DNA from: a virus
Virus record (IMG/VR): IMGVR_UViG_3300031351_000007
Location: 1-34,491 of that record
DNA: 34,491 nucleotides
Reading direction: 5' to 3' (one strand)
The position numbers and the translations under genes are program-made. Numbering within the stretch: the stretch's first letter is position 1; every line of letters begins with the position of its first letter. The notes below the pieces were generated by a model. It worked only from the letters and a program-made list of their open reading frames with translations. It did no database searches and was not told where the DNA came from. Shown here piece by piece: positions 4,103-32,128 of the stretch.

Positions 4103-4153
4103 TTAAGGTTTGTATTTAATTGTCATCCCTCCAATTTTAAATACCTTATTCAT
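4103..4153 (-). CDS. Tiny frame MNKVFKIGGMTIKYKP, doubtful
   Basis: This 16-codon frame starts by ATGA overlap with the helicase stop and ends inside the repeated leader block. Its end resembles the end of the XRE protein at 2928-3131 (MTIQHKP). It is probably the residue of a copied gene end that carries the next ribosome binding site rather than a functional peptide. Confidence 0.2.
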   Translation of the reverse strand: MNKVFKIGGMTIKYKP

Positions 4154-7100
4154 TTTTGCTCCAAATAAGACACTGCTTCTTCAAATAGATCAATCTTTTC
4201 ATCTACTTCCTTAGCCTCAGTAATAGATTCAATAATTTGCATCTTCTTCAATATGGTCTGTATAAAAAAATAATCTATACTATCTTTGACCGCAATCCAA
4301 TATGAATTAACACAGTTCTTCTGCCCAATTCTATGAATTCTGTCCTCTGCCTGTCTCATACGAGCAGGAGTCCAATCATATTCAGCGAATACAACATTGG
4401 ATGCGGCTGTCAAAGTTATACCCTCTGAACTTGCTCTAATAGATCCCACAAAAATTTTAATATCATCACAATCCTGAAATTTATCTATAGCTTCCTGCTT
4501 CTTTTCCGCATTATATCCACCTTTAATACCTACAGCTATCTTATTATATTTAAGCATTAGCCTATCAAAAATATCTCTATGATAAACAAAGACAACTACT
4601 TTATTACCTTGTTCAACAATAGAATCAATATGTTCTTCCACAAAAGGCAATTTCTCCAACGCAACTATTTGCCTGTATTTTTCTATAAGTTCCAAAGTGT
4701 AAGAGCTAGCAGAAGCTACTTCTTCATAAATCTCAGTCAATTCTTTATCTGATTTACGTTTAGCCTTTCTCTTCAATGAAATAACAGAACTCATACTCCG
4801 TTGTATCTCTTGTTCCAGAACACTCATATCAAATGAATCAATATCAACCTCAATAACTGTACGAACTTTATCCGGGAGCTCACTTAAAACCTCACTTTTC
4901 TTCCGGCGGATCATAACAGAAGTCCTTAATAGTTGACCAAGTTCTTCCGTATTACTGGATCCCTTAACATCCCAAATATATCTTCCACCATCACGAGTAG
5001 GTATCCAAGTCTTGTGAGCATTACAATATCTATAAACATAATTATACCAAGAAGCAAAAATAGTCGGGTTTAACATGTTCAACATAGTAAAGGCCTCAAC
5101 CGGTCTATTCAACACTGGGGTACCAGTTAAACACAAAACAGCCTCTATACTATCTTTCTTAGATAATTTTACAACCGCAGAAGTTCTCTTAGCTCTAAAA
5201 TTTTTTACGTAGTGAGAATTTGAAACTAAAACTCCACAAGCAAAATAATTATGATTGTCTTCCACTTCTATGTTATAAACTTTTTTATGTCTTGAATAAC
5301 CCCATCCAAATCTCTTAACACTTCTTCGTTCCAAAATCTCAACACTTTCCACCCGTGAAAACTCAACACCTTTTCCTTTCTCGCATCTATCCATTTCCAT
5401 TTTTGTGTTCTGTGAGTTTTCCCATCTACTTCTATTGCAATTTTTGACGGTAAGTGAACAATATCTATCTGATAATAATTTGGAAGATGTTGTGTCAATT
5501 TGCTCCCTTTCAAACTTTCTTTTGCTTTCTCCCCCACTATCACTTTGAATTCCATCCATTCCTTTGGAAACCCCAATGCTTCTAAAAGAATTTTCTGTGG
5601 AACAGTTATCTTGGGTTTCCCCCCTCTTCTGATAAAAGATGGGTTGTTTTTGTGATATCTCCGAGATGCTTCTCTTGACCTCTTTCTGAAATCCGGATCT
5701 TGATTTAATTTCGTCCAAAATCTTGATGCCCCCATGTTCGGTATACCTTTTTTTACCTTGGATAGTTTTCGATTTCGTTCTTCTGTAAATATCTTTTTTC
5801 TTATTTCTGGTTGTTCCATTCTCCATATTGCCGAACAACTCGTGGAACAAAATCTTTGTTTTTTGGATGGAATTACAACAAAAAATTTCCCACATTTTTC
5901 GCATTTTCTTTTCACTCTTTTCCTCAATTTTCTCGAAATTTTTCTCCTTATTTCTGGTTGTTGACCTTTCCATTTGGCAGAACAACTCACAGAACAAAAT
6001 CTTTGTTTTTTGTGTGAAGTTTTGAATTCTTTTCCACAAACATTGCAATATATAGTGTATTTTTCTTTTATCTTTTGATAAACTGCTTTGTAATAACAAC
6101 CTCTTGAACAATACTTCTGGTTTGATACTTTTGGAATAAAAATTTTCTTGCAAATACAACATTCTTTGATCTCTTTCCAATTCTTTCGCTCTGACATATC
6201 CTTTCTCCTTTGTATATATTTTATGGTTTTCTGTGCAGACAAACTTCCCTTTAGAATGAATAATTTCAACCATTCTACTTGTTTGAATAAAAGATTTCCA
6301 ATATTCAATTTTTTTAAATTCCAATTTCTTTTGAACTAAATTATAGGATAACACTTTAATAGATAATTTATTTTCCACTAAAAAACCTATAGACAACAAA
6401 CCATATTCTGTAATAACAGGCGTTTCATAATAAAAACATTCATCTATAATCAACGTTTTAAAATCAATTTCTTTCAAAGCATTTAAATAACGATCTTTAT
6501 ATATAATATCATAATTAATAACAATAAAATCACCGTCTCCTCTAAATTCATCATTACTTGATACCACTTCACATGAATTATTTCTCAATACCCATTTCTT
6601 TATCTCTTTATACCAATTATATTTCACAGTAGCCGGAGTGATTACCAATACTGGTCTATATTCTGGGTGACAATTAAGATAACCTAAAGAAGTAATAGTT
6701 TTTCCAAGTCCCATATCGTCAGCCAACAACACCCTTCCATTAGCTATATCTTCTATAAATTCAATACCAGCAATTTGGAATGGATAATATACGAGATCCG
6801 CTGGAACAGGTACAATAAGATCAGAATGTTTTTTAAAAGAAGCTTCCATCCTTTCCTTTAACATCTCATACTTTATTTTAACCTCCTCCATAACCCCCGA
6901 TTGAATATCAAGTTGTTGACCTTCTCCAGCATTCTCTTTAAGTAAATCTATATAATCATAGAAACGTTGTACATCCTTTTCAGTCATTATCTTCACTTTC
7001 CAAACTTTACGAGATTTAATATATTTTCGGACTGAAAATTCTTTCACCCGGGTTACAAGTTCCTGATCATAAGGAAAATCAAAGACAATAAAATCTTCTT

Positions 7101-7170
7101 CCTTTGTTAAAGTGGCATATATTGACATTAAAGAAACCGTGTTATCATCCTTTATCTTTATTCTTTTCAT
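4150..7170 (-). CDS. SNF2-family helicase interrupted by an intein
   Basis: The 1006-aa precursor joins a superfamily 2 helicase of about 599 aa with a 407-aa intein. N-terminal residues 1-75 resemble the small HARP-like region. YYPFQIAGIEFIED is the Q-like region, DDMGLGKT (151-158) is Walker A, and LVITPATVKYNW is motif Ia. After splicing, motif II reads DESH. SLTGTP-type motif III (CLTGTPVLNRP) follows, then DRIHRIGQK motif VI, diagnostic of SNF2 proteins such as SMARCAL1-like annealing helicases. In phages these may act like T4 UvsW in fork remodelling or recombination. That role is inference. It overlaps both neighbours by ATGA. Confidence 0.9.
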   Translation of the reverse strand: MKRIKIKDDNTVSLMSIYATLTKEEDFIVFDFPYDQELVTRVKEFSVRKYIKSRKVWKVKIMTEKDVQRFYDYIDLLKENAGEGQQLDIQSGVMEEVKIKYEMLKERMEASFKKHSDLIVPVPADLVYYPFQIAGIEFIEDIANGRVLLADDMGLGKTITSLGYLNCHPEYRPVLVITPATVKYNWYKEIKKWVLRNNSCEVVSSNDEFRGDGDFIVINYDIIYKDRYLNALKEIDFKTLIIDECFYYETPVITEYGLLSIGFLVENKLSIKVLSYNLVQKKLEFKKIEYWKSFIQTSRMVEIIHSKGKFVCTENHKIYTKEKGYVRAKELERDQRMLYLQENFYSKSIKPEVLFKRLLLQSSLSKDKRKIHYILQCLWKRIQNFTQKTKILFCELFCQMERSTTRNKEKNFEKIEEKSEKKMRKMWEIFCCNSIQKTKILFHELFGNMENGTTRNKKKDIYRRTKSKTIQGKKRYTEHGGIKILDEIKSRSGFQKEVKRSISEISQKQPIFYQKRGETQDNCSTENSFRSIGVSKGMDGIQSDSGGESKRKFEREQIDTTSSKLLSDRYCSLTVKNCNRSRWENSQNTKMEMDRCEKGKGVEFSRVESVEILERRSVKRFGWGYSRHKKVYNIEVEDNHNYFACGVLVSNSHYVKNFRAKRTSAVVKLSKKDSIEAVLCLTGTPVLNRPVEAFTMLNMLNPTIFASWYNYVYRYCNAHKTWIPTRDGGRYIWDVKGSSNTEELGQLLRTSVMIRRKKSEVLSELPDKVRTVIEVDIDSFDMSVLEQEIQRSMSSVISLKRKAKRKSDKELTEIYEEVASASSYTLELIEKYRQIVALEKLPFVEEHIDSIVEQGNKVVVFVYHRDIFDRLMLKYNKIAVGIKGGYNAEKKQEAIDKFQDCDDIKIFVGSIRASSEGITLTAASNVVFAEYDWTPARMRQAEDRIHRIGQKNCVNSYWIAVKDSIDYFFIQTILKKMQIIESITEAKEVDEKIDLFEEAVSYLEQK
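5268..6197 (-). CDS. Out-of-frame homing endonuclease nested in the intein (309 aa)
   Basis: The ATG at 6197 lies behind AAAGGAGAAAGGAT, a strong site inside the intein coding sequence; the frame is shifted by one relative to the helicase/intein frame. The N-terminal half carries three Cys-pair zinc units (CCICKK...YCSRGC, YCNVCG...FCSVSC, KCEKCG...FCSTSC). A helical NUMOD-like region with RRYHKNNPSFIRRG follows. The C-terminus has IDIVHLPSKIAIEVDGKTH and a later DARKEKVLSFHGWKVLRFWNEE, the VSR/DUF559-like PD-(D/E)XK nuclease fold seen in homing endonucleases. The likely role is cleavage of intein-less helicase genes. It stops 50 bases before the intein end. Confidence 0.85.
   Translation of the reverse strand: MSERKNWKEIKECCICKKIFIPKVSNQKYCSRGCYYKAVYQKIKEKYTIYCNVCGKEFKTSHKKQRFCSVSCSAKWKGQQPEIRRKISRKLRKRVKRKCEKCGKFFVVIPSKKQRFCSTSCSAIWRMEQPEIRKKIFTEERNRKLSKVKKGIPNMGASRFWTKLNQDPDFRKRSREASRRYHKNNPSFIRRGGKPKITVPQKILLEALGFPKEWMEFKVIVGEKAKESLKGSKLTQHLPNYYQIDIVHLPSKIAIEVDGKTHRTQKWKWIDARKEKVLSFHGWKVLRFWNEEVLRDLDGVIQDIKKFIT
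5801..6013 (-). repeat. Two direct copies of a 66-nt zinc-finger unit
   Basis: Bases 5801-5866 and 5948-6013 are closely similar, 147 bases apart. They encode KKQRFCS(V/T)SCSA(K/I)W and the following PEIR(R/K)K of the nested endonuclease. In the intein frame the same DNA gives a repeated TKILF(C/H)ELF sequence. This is an internal duplication of a zinc-binding DNA-recognition unit. Confidence 0.75.
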
Positions 7171-7754: not shown

Positions 7755-8138
7755 CTACACTAAAATCATATAATAAGGCATATCACCAGGCATAGCACTC
7801 CATACTTCTCTTGGAAATATACTCTTAACTTTACCTATTGCCATTCCTAGACAAAACAATTGTTCCATAATCTGATGCTCTCCGGTCCATTGTTTACCTT
7901 CTTTATCTACACAAGCATTAAGAAAAGACCAACCTCCACCTTTTTCCTTTCTAAATTCCTCTGGCAACTCCGATAATAATACTATTATCTCTTCCTTATG
8001 TTTTTTAATCTTTTCAGGTACAAAACCAAATTTCGCTACTATACCTTCTATCACAATCAATTCATCTATATTCACATCTTCTGTCTCAGGTAAACAATCC
8101 AAAAAAATTTCACTAACTTTTTTTGCTTCTAATTTCAT
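7755..8138 (-). CDS. Conserved-looking phage protein, 127 aa, unknown
   Basis: It starts behind AAAGGAGAAAAGAA. The N-terminal half is charged and helical. The C-terminal half has GGGWSFLNACVDKEGKQWTG followed by EHQIMEQLFCLGMAIGKV and a PREVWSAMPGDMPYY tail. That C-terminal pattern looks like a small conserved phage family, but no function is known to me. It is the first protein gene downstream of the tRNA-like element. Confidence 0.65.
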   Translation of the reverse strand: MKLEAKKVSEIFLDCLPETEDVNIDELIVIEGIVAKFGFVPEKIKKHKEEIIVLLSELPEEFRKEKGGGWSFLNACVDKEGKQWTGEHQIMEQLFCLGMAIGKVKSIFPREVWSAMPGDMPYYMILV

Positions 8139-8163
8139 TTCTTTTCTCCTTTTATATTTTAAG

Positions 8164-8268
8164 GGTACAGGGTAGGATTTGAACCTACAATCGTGACCGG
8201 GAAAACAAGCCTCACGCAGCTTTTTGGGCGCCTACCCCGGGGCATTACCAGATTCTGCCACCTGTACC
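8164..8268 (-). tRNA. tRNA-like gene with oversized anticodon region
   Basis: The acceptor 7-bp stem (8261-8267 with 8165-8171), D arm (stem GCA/TGC, loop with GGTAA) and T arm (GTAGG-TTCAAAT-CCTAC) are all canonical. There is an extra G-C pair at the -1/73 position as in tRNA-His. No CCA is encoded. The centre is wrong: 53 nt lie between D and T arms, against about 23 in a normal class I tRNA. CCGGG and CCCGG can pair, but they leave a 34-nt loop that itself forms an AAGC/GCTT hairpin with GTG in its loop. No standard 7-nt anticodon loop with U33 is found. It may be an intron-bearing, decayed or specialised tRNA. Confidence 0.6.
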
Positions 8269-8280
8269 ATATTTATAGGG

Positions 8281-8315
8281 GGTGTCCATGTTTGGCCAAT
8301 TCACGACCTACCCCC
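8281..8315 (-). other. Short hairpin between tRNA-like gene and large RNA
   Basis: GGGGGT at 8310-8315 can pair with ACACCCC at 8278-8284 on the minus-strand transcript, with an inner GTC/GAC pairing around a TTGGCCAA palindrome. There is no U-run after it, so it is not a normal terminator. It may be the 3' end of the ornate RNA or a processing signal before the tRNA-like element. Confidence 0.35.
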
Positions 8316-8325
8316 ACTATTTATA

Positions 8326-8790
8326 ACACGGAGTAGAGTGTAAGTGGTTCTCCTCAATATAATCTTCATCGCTTCTAAGCTTTCGCTCCACTCCAATTAT
8401 ATTGATGTGTGTCTCTATGCTAACGTCACCAACCCTACATCCGTGTAATTTATGATATAGAGGCAAAGGACTCTCACCCTTGCACGAATCAGCCTTTTTG
8501 CCACAACACACTTAGAGTCTCAAGAATCACCTTTCGGTTATAATCCCGAATAGGCTGTGTGTGGTGTGAGCAGCTACTATTCACATCTCACGGTATTATT
8601 GCGTCTGTGTCCGCCACTCTATATCATATTCAGTGGTGTAAGTGTAGGATCTTCCCCTACGGATAGATATGTGCGTTAGGAGGCCAATCCTAAGTTCTGC
8701 GGTTTACAGATGCTAACCTGAGACCCGGCACAAGGGGTGCTTCTATCTTACCCCGGCTCGTCAGCTGATCTATTCAGCCTACTCACACCA
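8326..8790 (-). ncRNA. Large ornate structured RNA, ROOL/GOLLD-like candidate
   Basis: This stretch is richer in GC than its surroundings, has no credible gene, and is dense in perfect helices. They are: 8562-8570/8782-8790 (9 bp, closing the 5' domain), 8676-8681/8688-8693, 8644-8648/8656-8660, 8614-8618/8632-8636, 8533-8537/8546-8550, 8354-8363/8396-8405 (10 bp, enclosing AGC-GAAA-GCT), 8326-8332/8440-8446 and 8413-8418/8457-8462. Helices 8462-8467/8497-8502 and 8469-8474/8514-8519 interleave as a pseudoknot; 8326-8332/8440-8446 and 8413-8418/8457-8462 form another. Size, phage origin and a tRNA-like neighbour match the known habits of ROOL and GOLLD RNAs. Class identity is inference. Confidence 0.75.
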
Positions 8791-8842
8791 TATTAAATTA
8801 TAAAAGAACAATACTAAAATACTTTTAAAAACAGTTTAAAAC

Positions 8843-8907
8843 CTTGCGGGCTTACGGTATCCCAACCTTTTAAGGGCGATAAACCCTACTATTTTTACAC
8901 CCGCAAG
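8843..8907 (-). ncRNA. Compact three-way-junction RNA, tRNA-like
   Basis: A perfect 8-bp stem (8843-8850 with 8900-8907) closes two smaller hairpins: AGGG-TTTATCG-CCCT, which has a 7-nt loop, and GGT-TGGGAT-ACC. The total is 65 nt, shaped like a truncated tRNA without a D arm and without a consensus T loop. It lies between the Cys-rich gene and the ornate RNA. It could be the 5' domain of that RNA, a processing signal, or a relic tRNA. Confidence 0.45.
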
Positions 8908-8924: not shown

Positions 8925-9140
8925 TTATTTGATTTTTGTAGGGTCGAACAGATAAGTTGTATTATCTCCATAAGTATAAGCGTTATAAATAGGGCATTCC
9001 TCTGTTGATTTTCCATTAAAACATTTTTCTCCATCAATTTCATGATTTTTACACAAAGCACAAGGCAATATTATATGTTCTCCTGTTTGTTCTATTTCTA
9101 ATGCCTTGAGTACTTCTTCTCTTTTCTTACTCTTTTTCAT
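8925..9140 (-). CDS. Small four-Cys protein, 71 aa
   Basis: A strong AAAGGAGGAG site precedes the ATG and a consensus promoter lies 35 bases further upstream, so this is the first gene of a transcription unit that continues into the structured RNAs. The Cys spacing, CALCKNHEIDGEKC then ECPIY, allows one zinc site. The N-terminus is basic (MKKSKKREEVLKALE). Family not recognised. Its position makes a link to the RNA worth considering, but no direct evidence exists. Confidence 0.65.
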   Translation of the reverse strand: MKKSKKREEVLKALEIEQTGEHIILPCALCKNHEIDGEKCFNGKSTEECPIYNAYTYGDNTTYLFDPTKIK

Positions 9141-9219: not shown

Positions 9220-9810
9220 TTACTCTTTAAAAAGTCTTTGCGATTCCATTTTTCTATTCTCCAAACCATATAAACCGACACTCAAAGCATCAGCGGTATC
9301 ACTAATATCTCCCTTATATTTCCGATGATAAACATCTCCCTCTTTTTTATTCTTCTTATCCGGAAGTTTTTCAAATATATCAGGAAATCTTCTCAACATT
9401 TCTTTTTCTACCATTGCTTTCTTGTCTACATTTCTCTTTTGACTGCCAACAATATTTGTTTTAACCATCGACTGATTCAAAAATTTAGGAATAACTTCAA
9501 AAGTATCATAAAGCAAATATGCAAAACCCCCCAACACAAAAAATAAATCAACTATTGTAATTTGATTTGGTCCCTTTTTTAAAGGTTCTTCTATATAAAT
9601 TTCACTCACCAAAATTGGATTCATTATCTTAAAACTTTTAACCGTGAACTTTATATCAACAATAAAATTCTCAATATTAATATAACAATACTTTTGTTCA
9701 TCGTCTTTAAAAACAACCACATCAATGGGGTTGTTATTTTTCCACAAAACAGCTGCACCATGTCTCATTGAACAATCTACTGACAAAAAATAAAAATCCT
9801 TTTCTATCAT
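9220..9810 (-). CDS. RuvC-like Holliday junction resolvase, 196 aa
   Basis: It has an RNase H fold with the expected acidic residues: Asp12 in FLSVDCSMR (first strand), Glu74/75 in IYIEEP, and Asp171/Asp174 in ISDTADALSVGL, the D-x-x-D-A ending typical of phage RuvC proteins. Length fits the family. It would cut branched DNA during recombination or before packaging, which fits its place directly after the large terminase (ATGA overlap). It is the last gene before the promoter of the RNA cassette. Confidence 0.85.
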   Translation of the reverse strand: MIEKDFYFLSVDCSMRHGAAVLWKNNNPIDVVVFKDDEQKYCYINIENFIVDIKFTVKSFKIMNPILVSEIYIEEPLKKGPNQITIVDLFFVLGGFAYLLYDTFEVIPKFLNQSMVKTNIVGSQKRNVDKKAMVEKEMLRRFPDIFEKLPDKKNKKEGDVYHRKYKGDISDTADALSVGLYGLENRKMESQRLFKE

Positions 9811-12800
9811 TTACTTAAATCCTTCACCCTACGTTCTAAAGCTATGGGAGTCACACCACCAGCCACTCCCGGAACACTTCCTTTGGATCTACGACCATAG
9901 TTCAAAACACTACCCACCGCAAAATTCTTAGATCCAACACCAGGTCCAGAAACATTCTTTCCCCTAACAGTTTTCTGAAAAGAACCCATTCTATCTATTC
10001 TTTCTTTCTCCAAATGTTGTCTTGCTTCTGGTCCTGATAAATTCATCATCCTATTAGAAAGTATCGTACCAACCCCCAGATTGCTTTGATCTAACATATC
10101 ATCAACCCACAGTTCATCCACCAACTGTACAAAACAATCAACAATATCCTGATAACCATAAATTACTAAAGGTTTAGTATTAGTCCCCGTAGTGCTATTG
10201 AGAGCTCTTAATTGAGATTCTAATTCCCTAACCATATCCGGTTGATTGGGAAGTTGAAAATCTCCATAGAGTATAAGACTCTTTGTTTTATCATAACATT
10301 CTTTCCGGGGCCCTTTCACACTCACAGTTATAAACTGTTTTTCAAACTGTTGTTTAATACGAACAGCATTCCAATGATCCATTCTGACAACAGAAACAGA
10401 ACCAAGTTGACGCACCATATCATCCAAAAACATAGCTAGATTATCATTATCTACAATCAAACCCTTCTCAACATCTGTATCATATAAGTATATACCATCA
10501 ACACAAATAATCTTACGAGGTTCACCCTCTGTCATCTCCTCAGAAAAAATAGTCTCTCTATGCCCAATCATAACCACGCACTTACAGTTCGATTCCGCTT
10601 GATCTATTACAACCACAGAGCTACCATTTATAGTATAATTCTTATTCGTGATCTCTTTATTAATATATTCTTTATTGTTAATTGTATGAAATTTAGTAAC
10701 CACCTCAAAAATAGGTCTATTATTCGAAGGCGCCAATGAAAAGTCAATACCTTGCAAAAATCTACCGGCAATAGCTGACGGTATCGCCATATAACGAGCA
10801 ACAGAATCTGAAGGGTATTTAATAAATCTATCTTTATATTCCACTGGAACCATAGAAGTTTTTTCCACTCGTTGACCTTTCTCATCATAAGTTGTAAAAG
10901 TAAAAGAGAACCTTTCTCCAGAATAAAATTTCTCTGGTTTTATCTCCCATGTTTTCTTTTGGGTTCCAATAACAGAATCCGAAATTTCGCTCTCTTTTAA
11001 TTTAAGATAAGTCCAATCATGTTTACTATCCAAACGAGGAAAAGAAAAAATCAAACCAACATAATGCCATTCTCTAGAAGAAGTCGTTAACGTATCATAT
11101 ATCTTATCCGCATTATGACGACCTTTATCAGATATAAAACCGCTCGATTCGTCCATAACAAAAAATATAACATTCTTACCCTCAAAACTTTCATTCTTAG
11201 CGTTAACAGAATAAGACGTAAGGAGATAAGGAAAATCTATTCTCGTTGTTTGTATATCAATTCGGCCATCAGATTGAGATAAAGAGTTTTGAGAACTATT
11301 TGATTCATATACATCATAATTGTCCATGAAATACATTGAATGTTTTAAACATTCGGTCATTCTACTAAAATATTCTTCCTTAGCTTGTGGTCCAGTAGTT
11401 GCCGCATTCACCAAAGATAATTTATCATCATTAGGAATTCCAAACAGTTCATGAGGATCCAAAATTCTATCGTTTTCCAATAAAGTATATATGACATACA
11501 ATTCAAGGTAAAAACCTAATGTGGATTTTCCAGAATTGTGATTTAACACCCCGCTTGCATCTACATAATTATGCGTTTCTTTAACTTCTAAATCATAAAC
11601 ATCATCAATTCCATCATATTCTATACTTTTGATAGATTCAAAAAATATATTCGGAGGATCTTCTCTTCTAATTTTTTTGGTCGACCATATTCCTTTATCT
11701 TCCCATCCCAAATATTTTAATAATTTTTTGCCCTCATATGATCTTCTAACTCTAACTTCATAACATATACCATATCTAGAATTAAAATTAGAAGAATTAA
11801 TTGGTTTTATCCTCAATCTACTCTTTATACCTAAACTACTATATAATCTCTTCAAATCAAAAGCCAATTCCTTAGAGACTGTCGCATATCCAATCTCTGT
11901 TACTTTATTACCCCCAGCATTTTGATGATATATCCACCCATCACTTTCGATCAAACCCCTCAAAAACTCTATTCGACTTTTTTTAGAGAAAGTAAATATT
12001 TTTCTAGGTATAAATTTATTATAACAATTATGACCAAATAAACCATAAGAAATCAATAATCTTCTAAAATAATTATTCTTTGGTAAAACAGAATTAATTC
12101 TAAAAGTTGAACAATTATCTCTTTTTTCAATTTCTCTTAAAACCGCTTTTTTATTATCAACCACATTCTTCATTTTTTCTATTATAGTCTCATCTCCTGA
12201 TATAAAACCAACGGACCCATCTCTACTAGAAATCATACCATCCCCAATCATAATTCCAAGAAACCACATATCATCTAAATCTGATTCGACCCCCGTTTCA
12301 TATTCATAAGTAGAAGTTACAATATAATCACCTTCTTTTAAATCTTTTAACTCAACCCACTCCGCTCCAAATCTATAATTATATCCCCATTTTCTTTTTA
12401 AAAATTTGTGTGTTTCATTGACCTTTAATTCAGACCCATCAGCCAAAATTACCTTGTATATTTTATCTTTTTTTACTTTCCAAGGAATCGATGTCTTTTT
12501 CTTATTTAAATTACAAATAAGTTTCTGATTTCCATGAGGACCTTTCCATTTTGAACTAAAAGATAATACATTAATTTCTTTTCTATCTTCCGTAAACTCT
12601 TTAATTGTTTTTATTTCACCATTTTTCAAATCCAGCAACAAACTATCTCCACATTTACAACCTTTTCCCCACAACCCCACATATTCTTTAACAATTCTTT
12701 TTTTGTCAAAAATAGAATACGGATCCTCTCCTATAAGTTTATATACCTCATCATACATAAATTTTGTTCTGTGAGGTTTTCCCAAATAATTAGGACTTTC

Positions 12801-12908
12801 TACAAAAGTATGAAATTGTACTAAACTCTCTTTATTTAATTGTTTTTCAACTTTTTGAAAATTGTTTAACTTTTTCTCCCACGAATACAAATTATCCTCC
12901 TCCCTCAT
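9807..12908 (-). CDS. terL: Terminase large subunit interrupted by an intein
   Basis: The 1033-aa precursor contains about 658 residues of terminase. After removal of the intein, GLWGKGSGKST forms Walker A. VIFFVMDES (about 580-588) is Walker B with the catalytic Glu, and a FSFPR stretch is the coupling motif. The C-terminal RNase H-type nuclease shows VVVIDQAES, ICVDGIYLYDTD and YQDIVDCFVQLVDELW with the acidic residues. The product powers genome packaging at the portal and cuts concatemers. A TTG at 12890 directly behind GGAGGAGGATAA is an alternative start with a much better ribosome site. It overlaps the upstream helix-turn-helix gene. Confidence 0.92.
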   Translation of the reverse strand: MREEDNLYSWEKKLNNFQKVEKQLNKESLVQFHTFVESPNYLGKPHRTKFMYDEVYKLIGEDPYSIFDKKRIVKEYVGLWGKGCKCGDSLLLDLKNGEIKTIKEFTEDRKEINVLSFSSKWKGPHGNQKLICNLNKKKTSIPWKVKKDKIYKVILADGSELKVNETHKFLKRKWGYNYRFGAEWVELKDLKEGDYIVTSTYEYETGVESDLDDMWFLGIMIGDGMISSRDGSVGFISGDETIIEKMKNVVDNKKAVLREIEKRDNCSTFRINSVLPKNNYFRRLLISYGLFGHNCYNKFIPRKIFTFSKKSRIEFLRGLIESDGWIYHQNAGGNKVTEIGYATVSKELAFDLKRLYSSLGIKSRLRIKPINSSNFNSRYGICYEVRVRRSYEGKKLLKYLGWEDKGIWSTKKIRREDPPNIFFESIKSIEYDGIDDVYDLEVKETHNYVDASGVLNHNSGKSTLGFYLELYVIYTLLENDRILDPHELFGIPNDDKLSLVNAATTGPQAKEEYFSRMTECLKHSMYFMDNYDVYESNSSQNSLSQSDGRIDIQTTRIDFPYLLTSYSVNAKNESFEGKNVIFFVMDESSGFISDKGRHNADKIYDTLTTSSREWHYVGLIFSFPRLDSKHDWTYLKLKESEISDSVIGTQKKTWEIKPEKFYSGERFSFTFTTYDEKGQRVEKTSMVPVEYKDRFIKYPSDSVARYMAIPSAIAGRFLQGIDFSLAPSNNRPIFEVVTKFHTINNKEYINKEITNKNYTINGSSVVVIDQAESNCKCVVMIGHRETIFSEEMTEGEPRKIICVDGIYLYDTDVEKGLIVDNDNLAMFLDDMVRQLGSVSVVRMDHWNAVRIKQQFEKQFITVSVKGPRKECYDKTKSLILYGDFQLPNQPDMVRELESQLRALNSTTGTNTKPLVIYGYQDIVDCFVQLVDELWVDDMLDQSNLGVGTILSNRMMNLSGPEARQHLEKERIDRMGSFQKTVRGKNVSGPGVGSKNFAVGSVLNYGRRSKGSVPGVAGGVTPIALERRVKDLSK
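11535..12659 (-). mobile_element. Intein with LAGLIDADG endonuclease in the terminase P-loop (375 aa)
   Basis: It starts at Cys84 (CKCGDSLLLDLKNGE) after GKG of Walker A and ends GVLNHN before SGKST. Block B is VNETHKFLK and block F is VYDLEVKETHNYV. Two LAGLIDADG-type motifs, FLGIMIGDGM and FLRGLIESDGW, show an in-frame homing endonuclease. All blocks look intact, so splicing is expected and would restore the ATPase site. Confidence 0.93.
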
Positions 12909-21412: not shown

Positions 21413-24400
21413 TTAAAAAAGTGATTGTTGTTTACCGTTTTTAGATCCATCAATAGATTCCGGAAAACTCCATCCAAGAGCCTCATAAATCATATTGATA
21501 TTTTTCTTCAAACGGTCCTTCATAGCAGTCCAATTAACATTGTATTCCCTAACCTTCTCAATATAACCATCAATATCTCTAAACGCAAGCACATCAAAAT
21601 CTTCATCTTGAATATATAACCATTTTATCTTTTCCCCTACATTGAAATCCAAACCTATTTTCATTGAGTTCTTAATAGCTCGTATATGTATAGAATCACA
21701 TTTATAATCAGCAATAGGTTTATTAAACCCACTTACAAAAGCAATATCTTCTAAAGGAAAAGTCTCATACTCTTTCCATATCTCTTCGACCCGGTAGTCC
21801 AATTCTTCCTTACTAACATCGTACAACACCATTTTAAAAAGTTCCATTTGAATATTTTTAACTATTTCTGGGGTAGAAGATCTCCTTGTTTCGACCCCCA
21901 CATCATCTAACTTCTCCATATCTTCCCCTTCCCTCCAAGTAAGTAACCCAACATATCTCTTCTTCGTGAATATCAAGAGACTCTTGTAAAACTTCTCAAA
22001 CTTATATTCAAAAGAATGAACTTTTATATTAAACTGCTTAATCACTTCATCTAAATTTTTATTCACAAGACTTTGTATCTTTTTACCCATCTCAATATAA
22101 TCATCACACTCTTCTTTCAAAATTAAGTATAGAGCATCAGTATTGTGAACTAAAATTAAACCTTCAGAATCTACAAAGTTATGATTTCCACATACCTCAA
22201 TATCATAGACTTTATTCTTTTTAGTTCCTATTTCTTCAATTTTATTTATTTTAGCGGGTCCTATACTATCAATTTCATTTTCTAAACAAGAAGAACTAAC
22301 TGTTTTAATCTGAGTTATACTTGGTTTATCTTCCCTGTACTTATACGCAACTTCATTTATACTTTTCTTGGTTTTTTTAGTTTCACCAAAATCCATTTGT
22401 TTCAACAAAAAAGAAACCTGATTAATCAAAGAAGAACTTTTTGATGTAAAATTCACAAATCTATCATCTTTTTTCGCTGCACTATAAGAACCATCTCCAT
22501 CAAAATATCCCTGTATAAATGCCTTCTTCAATTTATTATTTCCATTTAAAATTACAAAAGGAACTTTTTTCTTGTTAGAACCAACTCCCATCTTCAATCC
22601 ATCTTGAAATAAAACAGATAAAACTTTAGAAACTATCCTATAATAATACATTTTTCTATTTGTTCTGTTATCAATACTTTCTATTATTGCATAATCTTTT
22701 TCCAATATATTATCAAAAAAGGTTTTCACTCGTATTATTAATTTTTTATTTTGAGAACCAAAAGATACCATCCATCTATTAGCAGATTCTTTAGTAGAAA
22801 CAGAACCATCTGCGCACCAATAACCCAATATCCATGCAAAATCCTCACTCAACTTCCAAAAACGAGGAATCTTACAACATCTTCTGTTTTCATCCCCTAT
22901 ATATTTATACTCAGAAGATAAATCATCCAATGAACGCTTAATATTATTGTGGGCATAACTAATATGACTGCTAAGATTCTTGTAAAATTTACTACACAAA
23001 GGACAAACTCCTTTTCGTCCACCAAAAGATACGTTCATTTTATAACCTCTCAAACAATCATGAAAAAAATCTAATTGAGAAATATCTAAAAGATTCCCTT
23101 CTTTATATAATGGTTTAGAAAAGGGTATATCTAATAAAGAAACCAAAAAATCTCCAACTTTCAAATTACTTGCATCACATAAATCAATTAAACCATTAAT
23201 ATATCTATATACAGAATGTTGAGGAGTCACTACAGTCCTACCTCTATTAGTTGTAATGCGTAACAACTTACCTTCATAATCATGAACTATACCCCTTCTT
23301 ATAGGAGAAAAAACAACTTCATGTTTTTCCTCGTTAAAACACAAAGTTTCATAATCAGAACAATCATCAAATTCTTCTACAAATCTTCCAATGGGAACAA
23401 ATTCTATCTTTTTGCTGTTTATATTTTTAATTACAATCTCTCTATCATAATCAAGACTATCTCCCATTATAACTTCTGCATATCCACCTTCTTCCAATAA
23501 TTCTTTAGTAGCTCTCTGTATCTGACGAGCAGTATACGTCACAGCCTCAAATATATCTTTAGAATAAAATCTTGAATTATTATAAGCTATATATCCTATC
23601 TGTGCATTGTTCAATGCTTTCAAAGCTCTTTGTTTCATATCATATTCAATATAAGCAGCACTCCCTTCTTTTTCTTTAAACATTTTCTCTTTCTGATCTT
23701 CTCTATTATCCTGAAACTGTTTAACCGCTCTAGGTAATAAACCAACGGGAGATCTCTTAAATCTTTTATCATCAACAATTATCTCACCATCATCCGATTG
23801 AGTTTCCGGAGATAAATTCAAGCTCCGAATAATATTAGGATATAAAGCCGTTAGATCAAGCATTATAACATTTCTGTATAACCCACTTTTCACATCAAAT
23901 ACTTCCGGCCCTTTCTTCTTCTCATTCTTCACCTTCTGTTTTGAAGGCAAAACAATCTTGTTCTCATGTGCCAATCGTAATAAGGAATTGTCCACCATAG
24001 TCGCATAAGATAATGTATCATCAAAAGTTGAGTGAGAAATCTTCCTCAAAGCATCTATATATTCAGTAATATGATATTTTGCTTCAATACCCACCATCAA
24101 CTTAACATCTTTATGATTGTACCTAACAAAAAACTCAGGATCTTCCTTCCACATTTTAGTTATTTCAAGAGGAGAAAGATTTCTTTCTTTCCCTTCACCC
24201 AATTCTGTCTTACCTATATAATCTAAAGAATAAGAACTTCTTTCCCCATGTAAAAAAGCAGATAATTTTTTATAATGAGAAAGTAAATCTGCTAAATAAA
24301 TTCCTGCCAAATTTATACCGTATCTTTCATTGTAAATACAATATTCAATCGGAGATAAAAATTTAAAACTCTCTCCTCCAATCCTATTATAAAGATAAGG

Positions 24401-24973
24401 GTAATCAAACTTATCTGCATACCAACCCCACCAAATATCTGCCACATTCTTCCTCTCCCATATCATCCATGACTCAAGCATATCTTTCTCGTTATCAAAT
24501 AAATGAATCTCCGTATCAGCTAAATCCAAAAAAAGTTTTTTAACCCTTTCATGCCAAACAAAAACATGATATTTCTCTTCAAATGAATCATAAACAGTAT
24601 TGCTCAATATAGAATCTTTAGCCTGATCTACATTCAGACCGCCACCCTCTGAACGGATTTCAATATCAAGGAATCTTTTCCGGATAGATTCACTTTCTAT
24701 TTCATCAACTTTATCTATAAGGAAACGATTAGGATAATGTACATCTGCTTCAAAATTTTTACCATAGAATTTTCTGGTCTCATAAACTTCATAAGGCTCC
24801 TCACACATAACTCGTCTAAGTTTCTCACCATAAATAGAGTTATATTCTCCTTCCGGATCAAGAACATAAAAATAAGGTCTAAAATCATCAATCTCTTTTA
24901 TCTTTAACTTTTTATCTTTCCGATAAAAACAATAAATAAAAGAACTAATAGCAGCTACATTATTTATATTCAC
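21413..24973 (-). CDS. Family B DNA polymerase interrupted by an intein
   Basis: The precursor is 1186 aa, of which about 747 are polymerase. Exonuclease motifs are FLDIEIRS (Exo I), WYADKFDYPYLYNRI (Exo II) and YNHKDVKLM (Exo III, Y-x3-D). Polymerase motif A is DLTALYPNIIRS, motif B KALNNAQIGY, and motif C reads MGDTDALY after splicing. This matches gp43-type phage replicases, though shorter than T4 gp43 (898 aa). The start is GTG at 24973, three bases after the previous stop, with only a distant GGAG. It replicates the phage genome with proofreading. Confidence 0.93.
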   Translation of the reverse strand: MNINNVAAISSFIYCFYRKDKKLKIKEIDDFRPYFYVLDPEGEYNSIYGEKLRRVMCEEPYEVYETRKFYGKNFEADVHYPNRFLIDKVDEIESESIRKRFLDIEIRSEGGGLNVDQAKDSILSNTVYDSFEEKYHVFVWHERVKKLFLDLADTEIHLFDNEKDMLESWMIWERKNVADIWWGWYADKFDYPYLYNRIGGESFKFLSPIEYCIYNERYGINLAGIYLADLLSHYKKLSAFLHGERSSYSLDYIGKTELGEGKERNLSPLEITKMWKEDPEFFVRYNHKDVKLMVGIEAKYHITEYIDALRKISHSTFDDTLSYATMVDNSLLRLAHENKIVLPSKQKVKNEKKKGPEVFDVKSGLYRNVIMLDLTALYPNIIRSLNLSPETQSDDGEIIVDDKRFKRSPVGLLPRAVKQFQDNREDQKEKMFKEKEGSAAYIEYDMKQRALKALNNAQIGYIAYNNSRFYSKDIFEAVTYTARQIQRATKELLEEGGYAEVIMGDSLDYDREIVIKNINSKKIEFVPIGRFVEEFDDCSDYETLCFNEEKHEVVFSPIRRGIVHDYEGKLLRITTNRGRTVVTPQHSVYRYINGLIDLCDASNLKVGDFLVSLLDIPFSKPLYKEGNLLDISQLDFFHDCLRGYKMNVSFGGRKGVCPLCSKFYKNLSSHISYAHNNIKRSLDDLSSEYKYIGDENRRCCKIPRFWKLSEDFAWILGYWCADGSVSTKESANRWMVSFGSQNKKLIIRVKTFFDNILEKDYAIIESIDNRTNRKMYYYRIVSKVLSVLFQDGLKMGVGSNKKKVPFVILNGNNKLKKAFIQGYFDGDGSYSAAKKDDRFVNFTSKSSSLINQVSFLLKQMDFGETKKTKKSINEVAYKYREDKPSITQIKTVSSSCLENEIDSIGPAKINKIEEIGTKKNKVYDIEVCGNHNFVDSEGLILVHNTDALYLILKEECDDYIEMGKKIQSLVNKNLDEVIKQFNIKVHSFEYKFEKFYKSLLIFTKKRYVGLLTWREGEDMEKLDDVGVETRRSSTPEIVKNIQMELFKMVLYDVSKEELDYRVEEIWKEYETFPLEDIAFVSGFNKPIADYKCDSIHIRAIKNSMKIGLDFNVGEKIKWLYIQDEDFDVLAFRDIDGYIEKVREYNVNWTAMKDRLKKNINMIYEALGWSFPESIDGSKNGKQQSLF
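22142..23458 (-). mobile_element. Intein with LAGLIDADG endonuclease in polymerase motif C (439 aa)
   Basis: It starts with Ser506 (SLDYDREIVIKN) between Asp and Thr of GD-TD and ends GLILVHN before TDALYL, so Ser1 and extein Thr+1 act in splicing. Block B is TPQHSVYRY; block F is VYDIEVCGNHNFV. The LAGLIDADG motifs are LGYWCADGS and IQGYFDGDGS. Unusually it also carries a C2H2-type finger, CPLCSKFYKNLSSHISYAH. Insertion at polymerase motif C is a known intein site in archaeal family B polymerases. Confidence 0.92.
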
Positions 24974-31695: not shown

Positions 31696-31974
31696 TTATT
31701 TCTGATATAAAATGTTAAGAAATTTGTTTGGATTTAAAAGGGGTGGGGAGAAGGTAAAACAAATTTCAATTTGGGGGGGTTGTGAAGTATGGAGGTTCAA
31801 ATTTGGCAGAAAGCTAAGAGCTTTCTTATTCATTATATTATTACTAGGCCCCACTAGTTTACTTATTATATATAAGCTATATAACACTATAGTATATAGT
31901 GTAGTCATTACTATCGAGGTAGTGAATGCATTACCACTGTTCATAATAGTAATGAATGCACTACCTTGTTTCAC
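31696..31974 (-). CDS. Doubtful frame of 92 aa over a palindrome cluster
   Basis: A GTG start overlaps the previous gene by 14 bases and the stop lies four bases before the next ATG, so it would pack neatly. It has a predicted membrane helix (IVMTTLYTIVLYSLYIISKLV) and a proline-rich end. Against it: no ribosome binding site, the DNA is full of inverted repeats, and C-runs are unusual for this genome. It may be a structured intergenic region rather than a gene. Confidence 0.3.
   Translation of the reverse strand: MKQGSAFITIMNSGNAFTTSIVMTTLYTIVLYSLYIISKLVGPSNNIMNKKALSFLPNLNLHTSQPPQIEICFTFSPPLLNPNKFLNILYQK
31884..31965. repeat. Cluster of inverted repeats
   Basis: An 8-bp perfect inverted repeat with a 3-base spacer (31884-31891/31895-31902, ACACTATA/TATAGTGT) adjoins a 9-bp inverted repeat (31906-31914/31946-31954, CATTACTAT/ATAGTAATG) and a 7-bp pair (31918-31924/31959-31965). 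Two similar units around GAATGCAYTACC sit within it. These could be operators or folded RNA at the end of the gene at 31961-32128. Confidence 0.6.
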
Positions 31975-32128
31975 CGTAGAAACTTATTCTCTGTTCATCC
32001 TCACTAAGTATAAGTATATCAATGTCTTTCTCCTTTATTTGATCTATTTCTTGATTTATATATCCATGATCATTAATCTCTTTAGCTACTTTTATCATAT
32101 TTCTTTTGCACACATTAAAATCTTTCAT
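31961..32128 (-). CDS. Small acidic helical protein, 55 aa
   Basis: A GGGAGG site lies about ten bases before the ATG. The product starts MKDFNVCKRNMIKVAKEIND and is helical with an acidic middle (INQEIDQIKEKDIDILILSEDE). No recognised family. It lies downstream of a 44-aa membrane protein and is probably in the same transcript. Confidence 0.55.
   Translation of the reverse strand: MKDFNVCKRNMIKVAKEINDHGYINQEIDQIKEKDIDILILSEDEQRISFYGETR

Follow-up and report, generated by a model that had tools for sequence, protein, structure and literature searches.

We describe a non-coding RNA of about 520 nt in a phage genome, most probably encoded on the minus strand, like the surrounding genes. This RNA is real and structured beyond chance. 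While it has no match in Rfam, it carries a conserved kink-turn hairpin, which is the most informative result of the analysis. The hairpin recurs in several phage groups, and in three of them it is linked to a tRNA or to a tRNA-like element. To our knowledge, no role is known for the large phage RNAs that are linked to tRNAs (ROOL, GOLLD, the transcripts of phages K and ICP1). A module common to otherwise different tRNA-linked phage RNAs, and whose structure has well-studied binders, gives a concrete handle on what such RNAs bind. The question of their role becomes a direct experiment, namely whether a protein holds the kink-turn and, if so, which one, and the test is feasible since some of the members come from Streptomyces phages that can be grown in the laboratory.

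A structured RNA beside a tRNA-like element

The window, i.e. the whole stretch of DNA that was analysed, is an entire IMG/VR record of 34.5 kb. Its main genes are on the minus strand and encode a SNF2 helicase, a terminase, a B-family DNA polymerase, a DnaB-like helicase, and primase-like and gp32-like proteins. The non-coding block lies between the end of a 71-aa ORF (8925) and the start of a gene of the phrog_26039 family (8138), and the G+C content of the record peaks there, with 250-nt windows of up to 0.47 versus 0.322 for the record. Read 5' to 3' on the minus strand, the block comprises a small element closed by TCTTGCGGGT/GCCCGCAAGG (8908-8842), the RNA of about 520 nt (8790-8270, with ends inferred from the outermost helices), and a tRNA-like element (8268-8163), downstream of which is the phrog_26039 gene (7755..8138, minus strand). 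The initial annotation had called this block protein-free, and there is indeed no long ORF between 8925 and 8138: each minus-strand frame has 10-18 stops in the 521 nt of the RNA, and the longest open stretch is 64 codons. It had also proposed a promoter-driven cassette, which is only partly borne out. There is a perfect sigma-70 promoter (TTGACA-16-TATAAT) on the minus strand at 9203-9176, but it is upstream of the 71-aa ORF (8925..9140, minus strand), which stands between it and the RNA and has no Pfam match above chance. Immediately before the RNA, we found only a TATAAT (8802-8797) and no -35 box passing the scan.

The RNA has many more helices than expected. Seven helices have a score of at least 22, whereas 60 dinucleotide shuffles have 1.1 such helices on average; the score of the best one was reached in 1.7% of the shuffles and that of the second-best in none of the 60. 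The minimum free energy of the minus-strand RNA has a z-score of -2.25 (4 of 100 shuffles are equally low), and 250-nt windows reach -3.4 in the 5' part and -2.7 in the 3' part. Since the plus strand has a similar value (-2.43), the fold alone cannot fix the strand, and the choice of the minus strand rests on the position of the genes, tRNA-like element, and kink-turn, which are all on it. The block also has GUAGG repeated seven times, but this was discarded, being non-significant once multiple testing was allowed for.

In the predicted structure, a 5' domain of about 225 nt (8562..8790) is closed by the helix 8790-8779/8573-8562 and contains a long arm (8727-8582) whose pair probabilities are mostly 0.84-0.97. 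A closing helix of a domain of more than 200 nt had been noticed before, but its length is 11-12 bp and not 9 bp. The 3' domain (8326..8446) is closed by two helices of 7 bp each, 8446-8440/8332-8326 and 8438-8432/8339-8333, with probabilities of 0.97-0.98. A perfect 12-bp helix (8628-8617/8462-8451) crosses the closing helix of the 5' domain, i.e. forms a predicted long-range pseudoknot. In the model, it is a much stronger one than the two small pseudoknots of the initial annotation. The complementarities of the latter are present, and one of the helices involved (8326-8332/8440-8446) is strongly predicted (p 0.97), but their 6-bp helices are individually weak, and the strand 8457-8462 of the second pseudoknot is better used in the 12-bp helix. 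Between the RNA and the tRNA-like element, a hairpin closed by GGGGGU/ACCCCC (8278..8315) has a loop (8305-8294) that can pair with 8494-8483 (12 pairs, of which 4 are G-U).

The tRNA-like element (8163..8268, minus strand) follows the RNA, has a length of about 105 nt, and shows a long insert in the anticodon arm and no encoded CCA. The default run of ARAGORN did not call it. When introns were allowed, the program reported a tRNA-Asn(GUU) with a 27-nt insert, a reading that places a U at position 37; the anticodon loop would thus not be a normal one. The tRNA-Sec model gave 20 bits for a cut-off of 47, and a reading as tmRNA was rejected. Hence, the tRNA-like gene proposed earlier can be read as a tRNA-Asn(GUU) if introns are allowed, but it is not a canonical tRNA. 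The broader proposal of a large structured phage RNA adjoining a tRNA-like element is supported.

Comparison with known RNA families

We searched the window with all 4227 families of Rfam 15 using cmscan and found no match at the gathering thresholds. Around the block, matches at E up to 10 were at chance level, and none of them was ROOL, GOLLD, OLE, or a group I intron. A separate search of the record for ROOL (RF03087), for which the control genomes provided no positive control, gave nothing, and the cmscan of all families also lacked matches to GOLLD and to ARRPOF, the latter result being valid if the release includes the ARRPOF model. Membership in ROOL or GOLLD had been put forward on the basis of phage location, length, and the adjacent tRNA-like gene; the check with the Rfam covariance models speaks against it, and against ARRPOF too, with no match beyond chance at E up to 10. 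We favour a new class over a diverged form because the sole homologous piece, the kink-turn hairpin, leads to RNAs that also lack a large-RNA family in Rfam. By the tests available, the RNA is similar in kind to ROOL and GOLLD, but it is neither.

The resemblance to ROOL lies in a large pseudoknotted phage RNA of similar length, often near tRNA islands (PMC12286853), with the qualification that the pseudoknots of the window RNA are predicted and its tRNA-like element is atypical; the difference is the lack of a covariance-model match at E up to 10. GOLLD is also a large tRNA-linked phage RNA, and its binding to ribosomes in pull-downs is mentioned in the same article (PMC12286853), but the window RNA does not match it in Rfam and is shorter than 800 nt. 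OLE is a large RNA whose function requires a bound kink-turn: YbxF/OapC binds it, and mutations of the kink-turn abolish function (PMC9723947). In contrast to the window RNA, which has no Rfam match, OLE was described from Gram-positive bacteria and not from phage tRNA arrays. RNA C of T4 (species 1 RNA) is a stable RNA of 139 nt from a phage tRNA cluster, with a T-arm-like 3' hairpin that recalls the tRNA-like element of the window, but it does not match the kink-turn hairpin, which is absent from the T4 RNA C/D region. The large non-coding RNAs of phage K and ICP1 are abundant phage transcripts of unknown role (PMC9241854, PMC7567579), and the non-coding region of about 1 kb of ICP1 differs by lacking the hairpin.

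A kink-turn hairpin found in several phage groups

The hairpin lies in the 3' domain (8354..8405, minus strand, with the core GTGGAGCGAAAGCTTAGAAGC at 8391-8371) and can be read as a GNRA-capped kink-turn of the Kt-7 type, to which a second GA step and a covarying stem are joined. In the window it reads GUGGAGC-GAAA-GCUUAGAAGC, followed by the second GA step and by the stem. The consensus of its versions is G-UGGA-GC-GNRA-GC-NNN-GAAG-C, with a stem on either side. All the versions that we read have, by sequence, the standard elements of a kink-turn: the C-stem, a 3-nt bulge (UUA, AUA, AGA, AUC, AUU, or GUC), the G.A and A.G pairs, and the NC-stem. The 3b,3n position is A.G, as in Kt-7 of H. 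marismortui, and is followed by G.U and G-C. The kink-turn rules (3-nt bulge, G.A/A.G pairs, 3b,3n = A.G of Kt-7), as well as the binding of L24 to Kt-7, are given in PMC5061560. Bulge, G.A and A.G pairs, and 3b,3n = A.G are thus common to Kt-7 and the phage hairpin, whereas the C-stem of the latter is very short and GNRA-capped and, in the double version, the second GA step follows at once. This second step (5' GA; 3' NNN-GA) is present in the window, in the IMG/VR phage L210, and in Streptomyces phages; the versions of Rhizobium phages lack it. The 3' flank GCGAUGAAG presumably resembles the Kt-7 region of bacterial 23S rRNA; a pattern test for this resemblance gave nothing in three genomes, and we did not use it as evidence.

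Single-sequence protein searches from the neighbours of the RNA gave no relatives. Profiles of the terminase identified relatives at 25-34% identity, none of which has the RNA. Among the IMG/VR records open to the search there was no close relative of the phage, the best one (L093) being 33% identical, and both L093 and another relative (L096) are syntenic with the window over several replication genes. The RNA is absent at the equivalent place in both, as is any tRNA in L093, and it is therefore dispensable for the lineage. Apparent gaps in L013 and L016 were discarded, being ORFs that run off the locus. Another terminase, about 34% identical to that of the window, was found in a Candidatus Pacebacteria contig (L167, CALIVE010000028.1) from a Patescibacteria MAG; it might be a hint of the host or reflect a misbinned phage.

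Searches with the RNA itself gave several candidates that we rejected. Covariance models built from single sequences of the 5' arm and of the 3' domain had, in 1.5 Mb, a chance hit within an ORF of L154 as their sole other match. The pattern GCAATAATACCGTGAG had 19 matches, about as many as chance would give, of which the one that extended best is inside a 350-aa ORF of L173, and none of the 16 matches of TTCTTGAGACTCTAAG could be extended. The pattern CGAAAGCTTAGAAGCGA, one of three tried, matched exactly one contig, that of the IMG/VR phage L189/L210. The window and this contig are identical at 34 of 35 nt, with an E of 1e-6 both by BLAST (within the hit loci) and with the covariance model R1. 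In L210, the hairpin belongs to a non-coding stretch, where UGUGGGCUA/UAGCCCACA can close a domain around it, and it immediately follows a tRNA that has a long insert. Other stretches shared by L210 and the window are ACGkUAGCAU-AGA and AGAACCAC, with shuffle fractions of 0.086 and 0.069. No homologues were found for the remaining 400 nt or so of the window RNA, which comprise all the pseudoknots. The L210 tRNA (2018-2130) and the tRNA-like element of the window (8163-8268) both have long inserts in the anticodon arm.

A 61-nt query retrieved the core in non-coding DNA of Streptomyces phages at an E of about 5, and a query from phage Jay2Jay retrieved the hairpin in about 44 records of Streptomyces phages. 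In those that we examined, it is placed within the tRNA array, between a CDS and a tRNA-Met and directly upstream of the latter. The single-turn hairpin is present in non-coding gaps of Rhizobium phages (the N28_1 group and RHph_X2_24), where no tRNA is annotated next to it. Individual 21-nt BLAST matches have E of about 2-5 and would not stand alone. A model (R3) trained on six hairpins finds RHph_X2_24, absent from the training set, at an E of 2.3e-4, and RHph_N28_1 at 0.12 only. As a limited control, 380 Patescibacteria genomes were scanned for the core pattern, and none contained it. At the hairpin sites of L210 and of the Streptomyces and Rhizobium phages, Rfam gave no convincing RNA family other than tRNA.

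Covariation of the hairpin

The basal stem, set off from the C-stem by two GA steps, differs between phages while remaining paired: the window has AAUAUAAUU/GAUUAUAUU, L210 has CCAA/UUGG, Jay2Jay has GGUAA/UUACC, and both Mildred21 and Anedea have GUCGA/UCGAC. Each of the five pairs tested is changed on both sides, and 97.6% of the cells are paired. Sliding the partner reduces pairing to 17-41% (33-41% by one column). The alignment comprises six hairpins, four of them from related phages, the shuffles ignore kinship, and the structure derives from the same sequences; hence, the covariation figure is supportive and should not be read as a probability. This support is confined to one helix of the window RNA, the basal stem of the kink-turn hairpin, which was not among the helices of the initial annotation. 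In the Streptomyces RNAs, a helix outside the basal stem also covaries (U-A to C-G). Other changes are consistent with the model, such as GGC/GCC in the C-stem of Lululemon and GAAA to GCGA in RHEph12.

The RNAs of Streptomyces and Rhizobium phages

The hairpin of the Streptomyces phages ends about 15-20 nt before the tRNA-Met. Around it, L207 (2308-2548) and the equivalent regions of L212, L213, and L214 have a conserved RNA of about 220 nt that is absent from Rfam, with a TTGACA-type promoter in front and the tRNA-Met directly downstream. Phages Anedea (L214 158-313) and Riptide (L217 162-314) also encode, in the tRNA array and about 1.2 kb upstream of the kink-turn RNA, a KOW-domain protein of 50 aa, annotated as uL24 in Riptide (announcement PMC12509530).

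The hairpin of the Rhizobium N28_1 group is near the 3' end of a non-coding region of about 430 nt, which appears to be a structured RNA with a single kink-turn hairpin (L215 2140-2560 in RHph_N28_1; L218 1165-1591 in RHEph12). Between these two phages, 11 of the 119 predicted pairs are changed and none is broken, and substitutions affect 12 of the 238 paired positions versus 45 of the 195 unpaired ones, counts that are favoured by the structure having been computed from the same two sequences. The kink-turn module thus seems to be present in two or more large phage RNAs of different appearance.

Possible roles of the RNA

We think it somewhat probable that the minus strand of the block encodes a single phage RNA, non-coding and about 520 nt long, in which the kink-turn of the 3' domain is a docking or bending point, and that this RNA is a scaffold made with the phage tRNAs. 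The tRNA-like element would probably help the maturation of the transcript through tRNA-processing enzymes. The kink-turn, if it folds kinked as its sequence suggests, would bend the arm of the 3' domain and provide a docking site for a small kink-turn-binding protein, which could be the host YbxF/YlxQ (L7Ae family), uL24, or a phage KOW protein; we identified no such partner in the phage of the window. Alternatively, the GAAA loop might dock on another part of the RNA. A scaffold produced together with phage tRNAs might act in translation. The binding of YbxF/OapC to OLE and of L24 to Kt-7, the KOW protein in the tRNA array, and the GOLLD pull-downs suggest by analogy a role at the translation machinery, and the KOW protein of Anedea and Riptide is, from its sequence, a candidate binder of the hairpin. 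One could go further and propose that phage RNAs of about 200-520 nt made beside phage tRNAs form a so far undescribed group. Built around a GNRA-capped double kink-turn, they would recruit uL24/KOW or YbxF/YlxQ, as a protein associated with ribosomes, and act in this way on host translation during infection, but this is speculative and rather unlikely as a whole.

The alternative that best withstands the data is convergence: stable GNRA-capped kink-turns may arise repeatedly, and the window RNA would then be specific to its lineage and unrelated to the RNAs of Streptomyces and Rhizobium phages. Outside the hairpin, only the short stretches shared with L210 (shuffle fractions of 0.086 and 0.069) were found, none of which was recognised in other phages, and the absence of the second GA step in the Rhizobium hairpins points in the same direction. 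Yet, UGGA, GC-GNRA-GC, and GAAG are as well conserved as the GA pairs required for a kink-turn, the window and L210 have 34 of 35 nt in common, the double GA step occurs in three phage groups, and the 380 genomes lack the core. We therefore regard convergence as unlikely, though a serious contender; least of all can it be set aside for the Rhizobium hairpins.

The RNA could instead be of the ROOL/GOLLD kind and self-assemble into a cage or oligomer without protein, the kink-turn only shaping the monomer. Its length, its predicted pseudoknots, the phage setting, and the tRNA neighbourhood are all similar (PMC12286853), and the possible loop-loop pairing 8494-8483/8305-8294 would fit such an assembly. 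This explanation has to accommodate the lack of a sequence match to ROOL or GOLLD and the length of the Streptomyces RNAs, which have the same hairpin in only about 220 nt, and we find it doubtful. A cis-acting leader, where the hairpin controls the processing or expression of the following tRNA or gene, seems more doubtful still. The short distance to the tRNA-Met in Streptomyces phages is what one would expect from it, but in L210 the tRNA-like element is upstream of the hairpin, the Rhizobium hairpins have no tRNA annotated beside them, and 520 nt is unusual for a leader.

Two further explanations have very little in their favour. Chance folding of non-functional intergenic DNA would be in line with the moderate z-score of the whole RNA, but it is highly improbable given the excess of helices, the G+C peak, and the conserved hairpin, for which it is contradicted by the covariation. 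A degenerate group I intron beside the tRNA is the least credible reading: GAGACUCUAA ... GAGAGUCC presumably resembles a P7 helix, which is no more than a lead, but there is no convincing P4-P6 domain, and RF00028 has no match on the record at E up to 10, while the same search gives hits in 8 of 14 control genomes.

Other features of the record

Besides the promoter of the 71-aa ORF, the minus strand of the window has near-perfect sigma-70 promoters at 26414-26387 (12/12) and 32524-32497 (11/12). Inteins were identified in the SNF2 helicase (4150-7170), the terminase (9807-12908), and the B-family polymerase (21413-24973), the terminase and the polymerase also having LAGLIDADG domains. The folding z-score reaches its strongest value in the record (-5.3) at 31751-32000, a region of ordinary G+C content near the ORF 31696-31974.
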